From: Methanosaeta sp. PtaB.Bin039
GTDB taxonomy: Archaea; Halobacteriota; Methanosarcinia; Methanotrichales; Methanotrichaceae
Direction of reading: 5' to 3'
Length of the DNA stretch: 47,579 nucleotides
NCBI GenBank assembly: GCA_002067795.1
Contig: MVQI01000048.1
Location: 1-47,579 of the forward strand
Shown: piece after piece, positions 166 through 10,813 of the stretch
Layout: the number at the start of each line of letters is the position of its first letter
Numbering within the stretch: the first letter of the stretch is position 1
Translations under genes and position numbers: made by a program
The notes under the pieces: model-generated
The model's input: the letters and a program-made list of their open reading frames with translations, nothing else
Told to the model about the DNA's origin: nothing
Databases searched by the model: none

Positions 166-339
166 GGCTCGGACGGTGACCATCACTGGATATCATATTT
201 GGACAACGACTTTTCTAAAAAGGAAGCATGCGGTTGCTTCATATGATCTCCTGCACTGCACATTGTTCGGTTGGATCCTGCGGCAGTCTGCATAGTCTCT
301 GACGCTTCTTAGCGCTTTGCATTGCTGGGGCATTTTATT

Positions 340-406
340 TAGTAAGCTTTAAATCTAATAACTTGTTACCCTAAACTTACTATATAGAAAAAAGTTGTGA
401 TCTATC
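340..406 (+). promoter_or_regulatory. Promoter and possible operator of the ABC-transporter operon
   Basis: A TATA-like element (ACTATATAG, around 379-387) lies about 25 bases before the ATG at 407, so the transcript would be leaderless or nearly so. A second AT-rich element (CTTTAAATC) lies near 347. A 7-bp inverted repeat, TAGTAAG at 340-346 and CTTACTA at 376-382, overlaps the TATA element and could bind a regulator. The stretch 166-339 shows nothing else recognisable. Confidence 0.45.
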
Positions 407-1951
407 ATGTCAAAACTCCATAGAGCCGTTGTGGATTTATCTTTGGTCCTCGTAGGGCTATTGCTGATCGTCGGGCCTGGGTCGTCAAGCGGGACATTGA
501 ACGCCGCCCTGATCTTCGGTCCAGACGACAACCTGGACCCTGCCTACAAATATACCGGCTGGTATCTGCGGGAAGCAGGTATCTATGAGACGCTATTCGC
601 ATACGATACTGACATGAACCTGGTGCCTGAGCTGGCCAAGGGCTTTGATCAGATAAGCGATACCGAGTATCGGATCGCGCTTAAGGACGGAGTACATTTC
701 CACGACGGCTCGCTCCTCGATGCCGATGCAGTGGTATTCTCTCTTAAGAGGGCATTGGATCCGTCCAACGCCAGGAGCATGGAATACGATTTCATAGACT
801 CAATCGCCAAGTATGACCAGGGCAGCATAACCATCACCACAAAGGTTCCCTATGCCCCTCTCATCGCCAGCCTCACCGACCCTCTCCTCTCCATCGTGCC
901 GCTGTCCAACTCCCAGATCGACAGAGTTCCTATAGGAACCGGGCCTTTCAGGTTCGACTCGTATAAGAGCGGAGTCCGCCTAGACGTCGTCAGAAACGAT
1001 GGCTACTGGGGTCAGAAGGCGGACCTCGATGGGGCACGACTGAACTTCGTCTCAGATCCAATAACCAGGTCTCTTCAGCTTCAGGGCGGCGACGTCGACA
1101 TAGCCAGAGGCATTCCCCAGACCGAGGTAGGCGCGCTCAGGTCATCCGGGCTGGGCGTTCAGCAGAAGATGACTCTGCGGACCTACTTCATGTATGTCAA
1201 TATGAGAAAGGCACCCTTTGACGATATCAGGGTCAGGCATGCTCTCAATTACGCCATTAACCGGCAGGAGCTGGTTGATACTGCGCTTGAGGGCCTGGGT
1301 GGCGTTGCTGCTACTGGCGTCTTTTCCTCGGTCCTGCCATGGTCTGTCAATGACCAGTTGAAGGGATATCCCTTCGATCCGGATAGAGCAAGGGATCTGT
1401 TCGAGCAGGCAGGCATATCGGATACGGACGGCGACGGCTGGCTGGAGCATCAGGGAGAGCCATTCCATTTGACCATAAAGACGTATACAAAGCGCCCGGA
1501 ACTAAAGCCCTCTGCAGAGGTGGTGGCTGCTCAGCTGCGCTCAGCGGGGGTCAGAGCTGATGTGGAGATCCTTGAGAGCGGGGCTCTCAGCGCCGACCTG
1601 AAGGACGGCAATTACGATCTGTCTCTCTATGCATGGAACACTGCGCCTACCGGGGATCCTGATTACTTCTTATCCAAGCATTTCGAGTCCACAGGAACCG
1701 AGGCTGGTTACACCGGATACTCAAATACGGACGTCGATGCCTGGATAGCCGAGGGCAGAACTGCGTTCGACCAGCAAGAGCGGCGCAAGCATTACGCGAA
1801 GGTTCAGGAGCAGGTGCTGGCAGACTCCCCGGAAATATTCCTGTTCTACTTGAATGAGCTGGTGGGGCTTGGCAAGGATGTGCATGGGTATGAGATCTAT
1901 CCGAACGAGGTCACGTTCCTTACAAGTGGCGTGAACCTCGGGTCCTCCTAG
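407..1951 (+). CDS. ABC transporter substrate-binding protein, family 5 (peptide/nickel type)
   Basis: Extracytoplasmic binding protein that delivers an oligopeptide, nickel or metal-chelate ligand to the permeases encoded at 2803-4573. The 514-residue product starts with a hydrophobic signal segment (about residues 7-28, ending GPGSSSG) and then shows the family-5 pattern: YETLF near residue 60, VPELAKGF, the DGVHFHDG block and DADAVVFSLKRALDP near residues 100-120, and RVRHALNYAINRQELVD in the C-terminal lobe. Length is normal for DppA/OppA/NikA. It heads an operon with a methyltransferase and two permeases. The ligand cannot be read from sequence; nickel or a nickel chelate is an inference from methanogen physiology. 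Confidence 0.88.
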   Translation: MSKLHRAVVDLSLVLVGLLLIVGPGSSSGTLNAALIFGPDDNLDPAYKYTGWYLREAGIYETLFAYDTDMNLVPELAKGFDQISDTEYRIALKDGVHFHDGSLLDADAVVFSLKRALDPSNARSMEYDFIDSIAKYDQGSITITTKVPYAPLIASLTDPLLSIVPLSNSQIDRVPIGTGPFRFDSYKSGVRLDVVRNDGYWGQKADLDGARLNFVSDPITRSLQLQGGDVDIARGIPQTEVGALRSSGLGVQQKMTLRTYFMYVNMRKAPFDDIRVRHALNYAINRQELVDTALEGLGGVAATGVFSSVLPWSVNDQLKGYPFDPDRARDLFEQAGISDTDGDGWLEHQGEPFHLTIKTYTKRPELKPSAEVVAAQLRSAGVRADVEILESGALSADLKDGNYDLSLYAWNTAPTGDPDYFLSKHFESTGTEAGYTGYSNTDVDAWIAEGRTAFDQQERRKHYAKVQEQVLADSPEIFLFYLNELVGLGKDVHGYEIYPNEVTFLTSGVNLGSS

Positions 1952-2011: not shown

Positions 2012-2794
2012 ATGGGAGAGCCGATTACAGGGGATCATGTGCATTTTGGCGGCCAGGAAACTCGCATCAAGAAGGGCATATCGTATTACTGGGATCTGCG
2101 CAGTCCGAGCTACTTCTCCTTGGCAAGCGATGAAGAACGTCGTGCCTGGAGGGATTGCCTAAGAGCCCTACACGATGGGGCCGGGCTGCGGGTCCTGGAC
2201 GTTGGAACAGGTCGCGGCTTTCTGGCCTCCCTCCTGGCTGAGGATGGACATTGGGTGACAGGGCTGGACCTATCCAGCGGCATGCTGAGCCTTGCTGCCG
2301 CGAGCCGCCAGGATGCGCTTAATCTCGCATTTTGCCGGGGAGACGCAGAGAGATTGCCCTTTCGTGGAGCGAGCTTCGACCTTCTGGTAAGCAGGCATCT
2401 GCTGTGGACCCTGCCAGATCCGGCCCAGGCGGTTGCGGAGTGGTCTCGAGTCTTAAGGAGCGGTGGGAGGCTGGCTGCAGTCGATGGGATGTGGTTCGAT
2501 GACGCGCCTGTCATGCAACTGCGCCGTTTGATATCCTCCATTTTGACGTCCATCAAGGAGCGCCGGGACCCTCGCATCTTCGATAGGCATTATCGGAACA
2601 TAAGAGGCCACCTCCCGCTCTACAACCACGATAATCCGGAGAGGGTCGTCGACCTCTTCAGGGGAGCAGGCCTTCAAAACGTCCGTCTGAGCGACCTGGA
2701 AGAAATCGACAGGGCGCAGAGGAGGCAAGGCGGCCTTCGCTATCGTCTGTCCAACAAAAGGCCGGTCTTCCTGGTGACCGGCGACAAGCTCTAG
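2012..2794 (+). CDS. Class I SAM-dependent methyltransferase inside the transporter operon
   Basis: Predicted small-molecule methyltransferase of 260 residues. Motif I reads VLDVGTGRGF (around residues 60-69), the acidic loop after it is TGLDLSSGML, and the post-I region RGDAERLPF and the HLLWTLPDP segment follow the UbiE/Methyltransf_11 pattern. No membrane segment is seen. It sits 60 bases after the binding-protein gene and 8 bases before the first permease, so it is almost certainly co-transcribed with a metal/peptide importer. That position suggests it modifies the transported ligand or a chelator, which is inference; the substrate is unknown. Confidence 0.85.
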   Translation: MGEPITGDHVHFGGQETRIKKGISYYWDLRSPSYFSLASDEERRAWRDCLRALHDGAGLRVLDVGTGRGFLASLLAEDGHWVTGLDLSSGMLSLAAASRQDALNLAFCRGDAERLPFRGASFDLLVSRHLLWTLPDPAQAVAEWSRVLRSGGRLAAVDGMWFDDAPVMQLRRLISSILTSIKERRDPRIFDRHYRNIRGHLPLYNHDNPERVVDLFRGAGLQNVRLSDLEEIDRAQRRQGGLRYRLSNKRPVFLVTGDKL

Positions 2795-2802
2795 GGGCGG
2801 CT

Positions 2803-3747
2803 TTGAAGATATTTCTGCTCCGCCGGGCACTGGTCTTGTTGCCGGTCATGCTGCTGGTATCCCTGTTCAGCTTCGCTTTGATACACATGGCACCTGGTGA
2901 TCCTGCGGAGATCCTCCTGACCAGCCCTGCCGGCGGTGCGGATAGAGCAGCTGTAGAGGATTTCCGGACGAAGATGGGCTTTGATCAGCCGCTGCCCGTC
3001 CAGTACCTCCGCTGGCTGGGAAGGGCCATCCAGGGTGATCTGGGGTATTCTTATATGACCGGGCAGCCGGTTTGCTCCGCCATACTGGCCAGCTTCGAAT
3101 CGACCTTGAGGCTGTCTCTTCTAAGCATGGTCCTCTCGCTACTCGCGTCCATTCCGTTGGGCATCTGGTCTGCCATGAGGCCTGGTTCATTTCCGGATCA
3201 CATAGGCCGCTGGCTCGCCCTCCTCGGTGTCTCAGTTCCCAACTTCTGGCTTGCCTATCTTCTGATCCTGATGTTCGCCATCCACCTCAAGTGGTTTCCT
3301 GTGGCCGGCTACGGGAATGGGGGAGACCTCATGCATATGGTCCTGCCTGCCATAGCCCTTGGCGCGGCCTCTGCATCGGTTACCATCAGGCTGATGCGCT
3401 CGAGCATGCTGGACGTGCTGCAGCAGGATTACATCATCGCTGCCAGGGCAAAGGGCTTGGGGGGGTGGCAGGTAGCACTGGGACACGCCATGAAGAATGC
3501 CCTGATACCTGTGGCCACCATAAGCGGATTGAACTTCGGCTATATGCTGAACGGCTCGGTGGTGGTAGAGACGATCTTCGCCTGGCCGGGCATCGGGGGC
3601 CTGGTTGTCTCCTCGATATACCAGAGGGACTATCCCATGATTCAGGGGGTAACGCTCTTCGTGGCCCTCCTCTTCCTCTCCATCAATCTGCTCGTCGATC
3701 TGTTTTACGCCGTCTTGAATCCCGGGATACGCTATGAGAGAGAATAA
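2803..3747 (+). CDS. ABC transporter permease, DppB/NikB type
   Basis: First integral-membrane subunit of the family-5 importer, 314 residues. It shows the N-terminal membrane segment (about 8-28) followed by the conserved HMAPGDPAE block, then further membrane segments and the EAA coupling loop at about residues 210-240 (AARAKGLGGWQVALGHAMKN). The tail carries VVVETIFAWPGIGGL, typical of the family. The start is a TTG at 2803, 8 bases after the methyltransferase stop, with a GGGGCGG sequence just upstream. It overlaps the next permease gene by 14 bases, implying translational coupling. Confidence 0.9.
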   Translation: MKIFLLRRALVLLPVMLLVSLFSFALIHMAPGDPAEILLTSPAGGADRAAVEDFRTKMGFDQPLPVQYLRWLGRAIQGDLGYSYMTGQPVCSAILASFESTLRLSLLSMVLSLLASIPLGIWSAMRPGSFPDHIGRWLALLGVSVPNFWLAYLLILMFAIHLKWFPVAGYGNGGDLMHMVLPAIALGAASASVTIRLMRSSMLDVLQQDYIIAARAKGLGGWQVALGHAMKNALIPVATISGLNFGYMLNGSVVVETIFAWPGIGGLVVSSIYQRDYPMIQGVTLFVALLFLSINLLVDLFYAVLNPGIRYERE

Positions 3748-4573
3748 CAGCCGCAGGCAGATGCTCCTGGGCTTCATGATCCTGTCTGCCATCGCCCTTG
3801 TTGCCTTCTTCGCAGGGATGATAGCACCTCATGAGCCAAATCAGACCAACCTTGGGGAGAGGCTCAGTCCGCCCTCGTGGCAATATCCCTTCGGAAACGA
3901 TAATCTGGGGCGCTGTATCTTGAGCAGAATTATCTTTGCAGCCCGGATCTCCCTCTATATAGGCGTGGTTGTTGTGTCGCTATCTTTGCTGATCGGCGTG
4001 GCCTTGGGTTCGATAGCAGGATACTTTGGCGGGTTGTTGGACGAGCTGATCATGCGCTTTGTCGACGCTTTTCTGGCCTTTCCCAGCATGTTTCTGGCCC
4101 TTGCCGTTATCGGTCTGATGGGGCCGGGGCTGTCCAATCTTATCCTGGCCCTTGTGGTCGTGGAGTGGACCGGCTATGCCAGAATGGTCAGAGGTGAGGT
4201 GATATCATTGAAGGGCAAGGAATTCTTGGAGGCTGCAAGATCGTTGGGAGCTAAAGATTCCTATATACTCGTCCGTCATGTCCTTCCCAATGTCCTGGCC
4301 CCCGTTCTGGTCATGTCTGCGCTGGGAATAGGCTTTACAATACTTGCTGCTTCTGGTCTCAGCTTCCTGGGCTTAGGAGTGCAGCCGGGAATCCCTGAGT
4401 GGGGATCGATGCTCGACGATGGCCGGCTCTATCTGCGGGTGGCTCCCCACCTGATGATCTTTCCAGGCCTGGCCATAACCATAACAGTCCTGGCGTTCAA
4501 CCTTCTGGGCGAGGGTCTCCGAGACGAGCTGAATCCAAGGCTTGGGAGCAGTATCCACGAAGATGCAGCCTGA
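3734..4573 (+). CDS. ABC transporter permease, DppC/NikC type
   Basis: Second membrane subunit, 279 residues, expected to pair with the permease at 2803-3747. It shows the N-terminal membrane helix (about 10-30), the PFGNDNLGR-type motif at residues 52-60, and the EAA loop near 164-190 (LEAARSLGAKDSYILVRHVLPN). The SFLGLGVQPGIPEWG segment is characteristic of DppC/NikC proteins. The ATG start overlaps the upstream permease by 14 bases. The ATPase gene follows only after a 148-base gap that seems to hold its own promoter. Confidence 0.9.
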   Translation: MRENNSRRQMLLGFMILSAIALVAFFAGMIAPHEPNQTNLGERLSPPSWQYPFGNDNLGRCILSRIIFAARISLYIGVVVVSLSLLIGVALGSIAGYFGGLLDELIMRFVDAFLAFPSMFLALAVIGLMGPGLSNLILALVVVEWTGYARMVRGEVISLKGKEFLEAARSLGAKDSYILVRHVLPNVLAPVLVMSALGIGFTILAASGLSFLGLGVQPGIPEWGSMLDDGRLYLRVAPHLMIFPGLAITITVLAFNLLGEGLRDELNPRLGSSIHEDAA

Positions 4574-4721: not shown

Positions 4722-5480
4722 GTGTCCTCTGCCAACCTGATCGAGGTCCGGGGCCTCTCCAAGGTGTTCGTCAGCGGGCTTTTAAATCGGCATGAGGTTC
4801 GCGTCCTCGACGACGTATCATTCGATATCCGTAGGGGAGAGACCCTTGGGCTGGTTGGGGAGAGCGGCTGCGGCAAGTCTACTCTCGGAAGGTCGCTTCT
4901 CCGGCTCATCGAACCCACTTCCGGAAGCATAACTTTCGATGGCACCGATATCACCAGGCTGGGCCGCGGGGAGCTGAGGCGGATGAGGCACAGGATGCAG
5001 ATGATCTTTCAGGACCCCGAGTCCTCTCTCAATCCCAGGATGAAGATCGGGGATAGCGTTTCAGAGCCTCTGCGTCTGGGCCTTTGTGGAAAGATGGGCC
5101 GCAAGGAGATCTTGGAGAGGGTTTACGAGCTGATGGAGGTTGTCGGCCTAAATCCGGAGCATTATGGACGTTATCCATACCAGTTGAGCGGGGGACAGAA
5201 CCAGCGTGTGGTCCTGGCCAGAATCCTGGCCATCAATCCGGAGTTCATCGTCGCGGATGAGCCGACAGCATCTCTGGATGTCTCGGTTCAGGCACAGATA
5301 CTGCGTCTGATGATGGACCTGAAGAGCGCATACGGCCTGACCATGCTCTTCATATCTCACGACCTGGAGGTTGTGAGGCATATGAGCGACAGGATCGCCG
5401 TCATGAAATGCGGGCGGATCGAGCAGGTCTATCGCAATGAAGCTTCATCATCTTCCGCACCAAGTCTCCATCTCGGTTGA
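4722..5480 (+). CDS. ABC transporter ATP-binding protein, DppF/NikE type
   Basis: Cytoplasmic ATPase powering the importer, 252 residues. Walker [10 protein letters not shown] is at 46-54, the Q-loop region [13 protein letters not shown] near 95-107, signature LSGGQ at 155-159, Walker B FIVADEP at 175-181, and the H-loop histidine is in ISHD near 213. GTG start. The C-terminal tail after the GRIEQ segment is short, serine-rich and lacks the usual HPYT motif, so the last 20 or so residues may be altered by a frameshift. Only this one ATPase gene is present, although the family normally uses a DppD-DppF pair; it may homodimerise or recruit a partner encoded elsewhere. Confidence 0.87.
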
Positions 5481-10494: not shown

Positions 10495-10813
10495 GCGGCG
10501 GGCAAGTCCGGGTGGTTCGGCGTCACCTGTAACCTGAAATCCGTCGATAGCAGGGGACGAAGCTGGCGGACGACTCTATGCGCCGCACGATTCAGTCCAG
10601 TTGCCCACAATGATTCTCCGTCCTGTAGGGCCAGCATTGGCTCGAGGGCCTGCCGGAGGGCAGGTCAGCGGGTCTCAATCGCGGGGACCGGTTCAGGCCC
10701 GGAAGGGAGCAGACCTACCGCGGGTAACTGTCGCTTACAGGATGGCGGGGAGGAGAAAGCTCCTGGATCAACTGACGTGGGGCGTTCCTGGCAACCGCCG
10801 GCACACCCGCCGC
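10495..10813 (+). ncRNA. ffs: Signal recognition particle 7S RNA
   Basis: RNA scaffold of the archaeal SRP, binding SRP19 and SRP54 for co-translational targeting. The diagnostic helix 8 is GGCCCGGAAGGGAGCAG at about 10697-10713, with the conserved GGAAGG-type symmetric loop and AGCAG asymmetric loop. The ends pair as archaeal helix 1: GCGGCGGG at 10495-10502 with CCCGCCGC at 10806-10813. The roughly 319-base length is right for archaeal 7S RNA. Ends are set from that pairing and could shift by a few bases. Confidence 0.93.

Follow-up and report, generated by a model that had tools for sequence, protein, structure and literature searches.

The contig MVQI01000048.1 of Methanosaeta sp. PtaB.Bin039, whose 47,579 nucleotides are referred to here as the window, raises the question of why a gene for a class I SAM-dependent methyltransferase (MT) is located inside an operon predicted to encode an ABC importer, between the solute-binding protein (SBP) and the first permease. 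The features of the operon are the following:

335..406, + strand: likely operon promoter region, AT-rich, with a BRE/TATA-like AGTAAGCTTTAAATC, as read from the sequence
407..1951, + strand: SBP_bac_5 solute-binding protein, NikA/Opp-like, first gene of the operon (Pfam 4.7e-83)
2012..2794, + strand: class I SAM-dependent MT of the importer-linked family (Methyltransf_11, signature residues, linkage)
2803..3747, + strand: ABC permease, NikB/Opp2B-like, TTG start (BPD_transp_1; Opp2B 363 of 350 bits)
3734..4573, + strand: ABC permease, NikC/Opp2C-like (BPD_transp_1; Opp2C 312 of 300 bits)
4722..5480, + strand: single ABC ATPase, NikE/DppF-like, GTG start (ABC_tran 1.7e-35; TIGR02769 243 of 333 bits)

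The gene order in the window is thus SBP5, MT, permease, permease, ATPase. The MT open reading frame starts with ATG, encodes 260 amino acids and matches Pfam Methyltransf_11 with 9.8e-25, while the only ATPase gene of the operon lies 148 bases 3' of the second permease gene. Two near-identical copies of CTGATCCATTATGTTGTGAYATGTCCCTCATGCTG were noticed by eye 5' of the operon (positions 58-95 and 131-164), and the window also encodes an archaeal signal recognition particle RNA (10496-10812, 194 bits).

Relatives of the MT were detected in 17 of the 50 genomes of the window's family (Methanotrichaceae), a patchy distribution, and the order SBP5-MT-PermB-PermC is found in most of these 17. Paralogues in the same genomes adjoin other SBP5 genes or Peripla_BP_2 (FecB-like) genes, sometimes together with FecCD and an ATPase. 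Among the 50 Methanotrichaceae genomes, each of those that carry the orthologue of the window SBP also carries the MT (14 of 14, p=7e-10). Extending the search to 392 genomes of the phylum, with family membership defined by E <= 1e-45, revealed a member in 91 of them. The neighbourhoods of 152 family genes from 83 archaeal genomes were evaluated using longest-ORF gene calls and labels from profiles built in this analysis; 131 have a family-5 or FecB-type importer no more than three genes away, counts that do not represent independent events because many of the Methanosarcina are close relatives. Within this distance, 86 MT genes have an SBP5-type partner, 36 a FecB-type partner, nine both and seven an ATPase only. 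The remaining 14 copies have no importer nearby according to the profile labels, and not all of these are linked to nicotianamine synthase (NAS). An importer gene is directly adjoined by 116 of the 152, in 113 cases on the same strand. The families f1 and f2 are presumably the Methanotrichaceae and Methanosarcinaceae.

As a control, 30 Methyltransf_11 loci from five of these 83 genomes were compared, in which an importer adjoins 14 of 16 MTs of the family and none of the 14 others (p=8e-7). The genome of the window itself contains six SBP5 and 31 Peripla_BP_2 matches in 2.45 Mb, so that chance adjacency is estimated at only a few percent. The linkage between MT and importer is not due to chance. 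The first-pass annotation had placed the MT 60 and 8 bases from its neighbours and considered it part of the transporter operon rather than a passenger. Both spacings are exact (the SBP gene ends at 1951 and the permease TTG is at 2803), and the operon membership is borne out by them and by the recurrence of the arrangement in orthologues and paralogues over the phylum. The neighbourhood search it had recommended finds the linkage conserved in related genomes, as given by the 131 of 152 genes. A description of an MT in importer operons of this kind was not found in the open-licence literature searched.

Several further observations concern the surroundings of these operons. Some Peripla_BP_2 proteins of the window's own genome (e.g. 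L039:5192-6592 and L040:6727-8022) carry an N-terminal dockerin/EF-hand-like stretch (NANMDE..DANFDGKIDESD). A Fer4_16 4Fe-4S protein is encoded next to the MT operon at L120:5400-6188 and L145:11139-11867, and genes of similar size occupy the matching position in L121 and L141. A second class I MT family (MT2, starting MIDW..W), for which BLAST gave only a SAM-motif match to the first, occupies the slots of the first MT at L303:8572-9381 (- strand), L301:3576-4412 (+ strand) and L302:2096-2920 (+ strand), and in the own genome on contigs C5 and C24, where it adjoins Peripla_BP_2 genes. In G017 the order SBP5-MT2-PermB-PermC-MFS-ATP-ATP was observed. In the own genome, G000:C4:441-2434 comprises decayed, partly repeated MT2 copies with several stop codons on one contig.

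In a FastTree phylogeny of 170 sequences the MT family is separated from the control MTs with a local support of 96. The tree requires about 14 changes of partner between SBP5 and FecB, at least ten of which are forced by supported branches. Since the MT follows two unrelated importer classes, it more likely acts on a cargo common to both than on a transporter protein.

The protein itself shows a Methyltransf_11 core that includes a canonical SAM motif. The residues W27, W46, R/K128, W132, T133, P137, W144 and D158-G159-W161 are common to the SBP5-linked, FecB-linked, NAS-linked and bacterial members, W161 being less strict in the latter. These residues are largely missing in the control MTs, save W27 and W46 in some, and the R/K128-W132-W144-DGW signature sets the family apart from those tested. 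The window MT shows both the signature residues and the importer linkage by which the importer-linked family is defined. Used as a single query in a contig scan it retrieved two weak loci. Its predicted structure (pLDDT 87.6) resembles LahSB, AtmM, RebM, MitM and a phosphoethanolamine MT with TM values of about 0.55-0.65. RebM, MitM, AtmM and the phosphoethanolamine MT, which rank among the closest solved structures, share the fold and the SAM motif with the window MT at roughly 15-25% identity, and this predicted resemblance to small-molecule MTs does not name a substrate. The earlier statement that this type of enzyme has no known substrate stands, because the MT stays under the cut-off of every NCBIfam equivalog (best score 73.9 of 155 bits). 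An assignment as UbiE/MenG, BioC, CpaM or DVU_1556 was rejected since every score was under the curated cut-off, ArsM was rejected for want of an invariant cysteine in the family alignment and with a profile score of 54 of 510 bits, and a nicotianamine synthase was rejected as the Pfam scan of the MT gave no PF03059 match.

The importer resembles nickel transporters of the NikABCDE type in its SBP fold, in permeases that score above the “nickel permease” cut-offs Opp2B (363/350) and Opp2C (312/300), in its NikE-like ATPase, and in the NikR-like palindromes that precede many of its relatives. However, both permeases are under the cut-offs of TIGR02789 NikB (314/447) and TIGR02790 NikC (342/358), and the window SBP remains below those of the NikA equivalogs (NF045468, 296 of 600; TIGR02294, 182 of 393). 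In a remote pairwise alignment, His416, a metal contact of E. coli NikA, corresponds to Thr in the window SBP, with a His four columns earlier. Furthermore, the MT lies between the NikA and NikB positions, one ATPase gene is present instead of two (several relatives of the window operon do have two), and the window promoter lacks a NikR-like site. The predicted SBP structure (pLDDT 93.6) is closest to 5u4o, AppA, S. aureus NikA and E. coli NikA, the structure of S. aureus NikA near the model having bound Ni-(L-His)(2-methyl-thiazolidine dicarboxylate). The peptide-binding AppA is as close as NikA; the predicted fold by itself does not separate metal chelates from peptides.

The staphylopine/opine system (CntKLM, importer CntABCDF, exporter CntE) likewise combines an SBP_bac_5 importer of Ni/Co chelates with a SAM-using enzyme, and has further parallels in the CntL-related NAS beside some MT copies and in the co-occurrence of an MFS protein with the MT. 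In the window, by contrast, the SAM enzyme belongs to Methyltransf_11 rather than to CntL/NAS, the genome is without NAS, and the SBP reaches 100 of 800 bits against CntA, under the cut-off. Membership of the window system in NikABCDE or Cnt was rejected on the features tested (SBP scores, His416, ATPase count, NikR site, NAS). An MFS protein is encoded in or beside several MT operons, and in the 50 Methanotrichaceae genomes 12 of the 13 that carry the MFS also carry the MT (p=6e-7), with the two genes unlinked in many. The own-genome copy (G000:C24) is unlinked to the window, and none of the NCBIfam exporter names was reached by the MFS family.

Copies of the MT without an SBP partner provide a connection to chelator synthesis. 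NAS (PF03059) is encoded beside or close to such copies in L117, L122, L126, L140, L142, L171/L313, L174 and L175, which represent eight genomes of two families (Methanosarcinaceae and f9). Most of these loci also carry CbiQ and CbiO, CbiQ scoring above the cobalt ECF cut-off of NCBIfam wherever it was tested, and those of f9 carry in addition the cobyric acid synthase CobQ. CbiQ/CbiO lie near the MT in L125 without NAS, and other unlinked copies (e.g. L118, L136, L138, L152, L154) have neither neighbour. NAS was found in 34 of the 392 genomes. The MT is present in 26 of these 34, a correlation confounded by Methanosarcina phylogeny. Such confounding does not readily account for the closeness of NAS and MT in eight genomes from two families. 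NAS yields aminobutyrate-based metallophores (PMC10248798). Archaeal NAS clusters of the MtNAS type with CbiQ/CbiO are related to the window through the same-family MTs that adjoin NAS in Methanosarcinaceae and f9, but differ in that the window operon has an SBP importer and its genome (96% complete) contains no PF03059 nicotianamine synthase. Its chelator skeleton would consequently be some other one or would be scavenged. DUF4198 proteins are encoded near SBP5 or NAS at L158:6668-7294, L169:4763-5446 (under the Pfam cut-off), L173:4478-5212 and L313:8304-9230.

Near-full-length relatives were also detected outside the archaea. A tblastn search against plasmids gave alphaproteobacterial proteins of about 34% identity at about 90% cover, encoded beside annotated FecBCD operons at eleven loci. 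A cobalamin riboswitch of 107-120 bits lies 5' of the importer operon at the S. meliloti loci L235 and L237 (the latter on pSymB of strain 1021, with the MT at about 69.5-70.4 kb), in the Shinella-type loci L234, L242 and L250 and in Roseomonas (L240); none was found in L233, L236, L243-L245, L247 and L248. In published work, cobalamin riboswitches served to tell which Ni/Co importers are specific for cobalt (PMC2667541). In the rhizobial operons (BtuFCD/EitABC-like) the MT of this family is the last gene or a divergent neighbour; compared with the window they are bacterial and use another importer class, and in the archaeal MT loci scanned with Rfam, the window among them, no riboswitch was revealed. 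No outer-membrane BtuB-type gene is annotated in the bacterial loci read, and for S. meliloti SMb20056 the literature yielded just the intergenic region as a repeat/sRNA candidate. A pseudoazurin gene lies within the bacterial FecBCD-MT cluster at L240:8780-9211 and L250:6561-7010. The haloarchaeal relative in L238 is divergent from an SBP5/nikBC set, and the weaker plasmid relatives in L239 and L241 have no adjoining importer.

For the archaeal SBP5-MT promoters we scanned a delta-proteobacterial NikR consensus fixed beforehand (GTGTTAC-N13/14-GTAACAC, PMC545781), with up to three mismatches and spacers of 13-15, a range that goes one base beyond the consensus. It was found in 8 of 66 SBP5-MT promoters, compared with 6 of the 407 remaining promoters at these loci (p=1.5e-4). 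For a degenerate form, picked once the matches had been seen, the figures are 24 of 66 versus 24 of 407, and 22 versus 4.2 expected from dinucleotide shuffles, which allow for the difference in AT content between SBP5-MT promoters (0.69) and others (0.60). Many of the sites are located about 50-65 bases 5' of the start with a 14-base spacing. The E. coli-type NikR operator was rejected as weak (four loci at up to two mismatches versus 0.4 by shuffle; the window has none). The presence of a NikR gene is uninformative as a predictor because 388 of the 392 genomes have one; among the MT loci retrieved, just three have it, within about 5 kb. Two NikR-like genes in L187 (6932-7159 and 7478-7900) are about 5 kb or less from an SBP5-MT-PermB set, and the NikR-like palindrome in the promoter of this set is among the best.

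As to whether NikR sites follow the MT, an enrichment of NikR-like palindromes is seen for archaeal SBP5-MT operons as a group but no such site at the window promoter, where the best candidate has five mismatches to GTGTTAC-N13/15-GTAACAC. The first-pass annotation had furthermore associated the MT with a metal chelator and with the nickel demand for F430. The former association gained independent evidence from the NAS neighbours, CbiQ/O, the cobalamin riboswitches and the NikR-like palindromes. The specific one to nickel and F430 could not be upheld: the bacterial regulatory evidence is strongest for cobalt/cobalamin, members of the family are found in bacteria and haloarchaea as well, a NikR-like site is missing from the window promoter, and the SBP falls short in the NikA tests.

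Because of the partner switching, the NAS and CbiQ/CbiO neighbours, the riboswitches and the NikR-like palindromes, the element common to these systems is probably a small Ni/Co chelate and not one transporter protein. With relatives encoded beside nickel-, cobalt- or B12-type importers or chelator genes, the MT probably modifies a small metal-carrying molecule. We propose, with middling confidence and on genomic grounds, that within a system for acquiring Ni/Co chelates it would be the enzyme that modifies the ligand, by methylating this chelator; the parts of this explanation that we infer are the ligand as substrate, the identity of the metal, the direction and also the chemistry. The MT would use SAM to methylate a small organic chelator, the transfer of another SAM-derived group being less likely, and this chelator would be handled by the adjoining SBP5 importer in the window and by FecBCD or NAS/CbiQO sets elsewhere. 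Preferably, the MT would form or tailor the ligand in a step of its biosynthesis, and the ligand would then be exported by the co-occurring MFS and re-imported as metal complex.

Alternatively, the MT may methylate the imported ligand or complex, leading to metal release, ligand trapping or detoxification, with ligands scavenged from the community and no biosynthesis. The usual co-directionality of MT and importer genes agrees with this, as does the finding that neither in the own genome nor at the alphaproteobacterial loci can a gene for chelator synthesis be recognised close by. The NAS-adjacent copies and the co-occurrence of the MFS, however, fit synthesis and export better, and modification after import appears possible but doubtful. 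We lean towards biosynthetic tailoring, the missing NAS in the own genome being the main gap in such a reading. It is a somewhat more doubtful possibility that the MT constitutes a one-enzyme metallophore pathway, making a secreted Ni/Co chelator from a common metabolite, with MFS export and SBP5 re-import and without NAS, in which case recruitment of the family to SBP5, FecBCD and NAS/CbiQO sets would have happened repeatedly in both archaea and bacteria.

A corrinoid, or a precursor of one, as cargo, with the MT acting in cobamide salvage or remodelling, would explain the cobalamin riboswitches before the bacterial FecBCD-MT operons and the CobQ and CbiQ/CbiO neighbours in archaea. Yet it seems unlikely, considering that NAS neighbours and SBP5/Nik-type importers are not features of corrinoid systems, that the NikR-like palindromes suggest nickel and that a BtuB-type gene is not annotated in the bacterial loci. 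The generic fold and the lack of an assigned substrate would also be compatible with a housekeeping or regulatory MT (for quinone, lipid, RNA or transporter-protein methylation) merely carried along in the operon, which is made very improbable by the control comparison (14/16 versus 0/14), the repeated partner switching and the patchy distribution in 17 of the 50 family genomes. Methylation of metalloids by methanogens is known, and a detoxifying MT acting on a metal or metalloid would be in line with it; given the absence of invariant cysteines, the low ArsM score (54 of 510 bits) and partners that are importers rather than exporters, we regard this as the most remote of the readings. The safest statement is that the window MT comes from a widespread family, nameless in the libraries searched, that belongs to Ni/Co metal-chelate acquisition.

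Methanogens have large nickel proteomes, with Methanosarcina having the largest for both nickel and cobalt (PMC2667541), and little is known of nickel uptake in methanogens (PMC10617489). In M. barkeri, binding proteins of the Opp/nickel type differ by a factor of more than 130 between cultures with cysteine and with pyrite, which was interpreted as cell-cell recognition (PMC10846266); the MT-importer link suggests another reading of this proteome if these binding proteins are the MT-linked ones. The linkage would also help to name many “peptide” or “iron” transporters, and an MT family following metal-chelate importers across two domains and joining NAS in Methanosarcinaceae would give a testable handle on archaeal metallophores.
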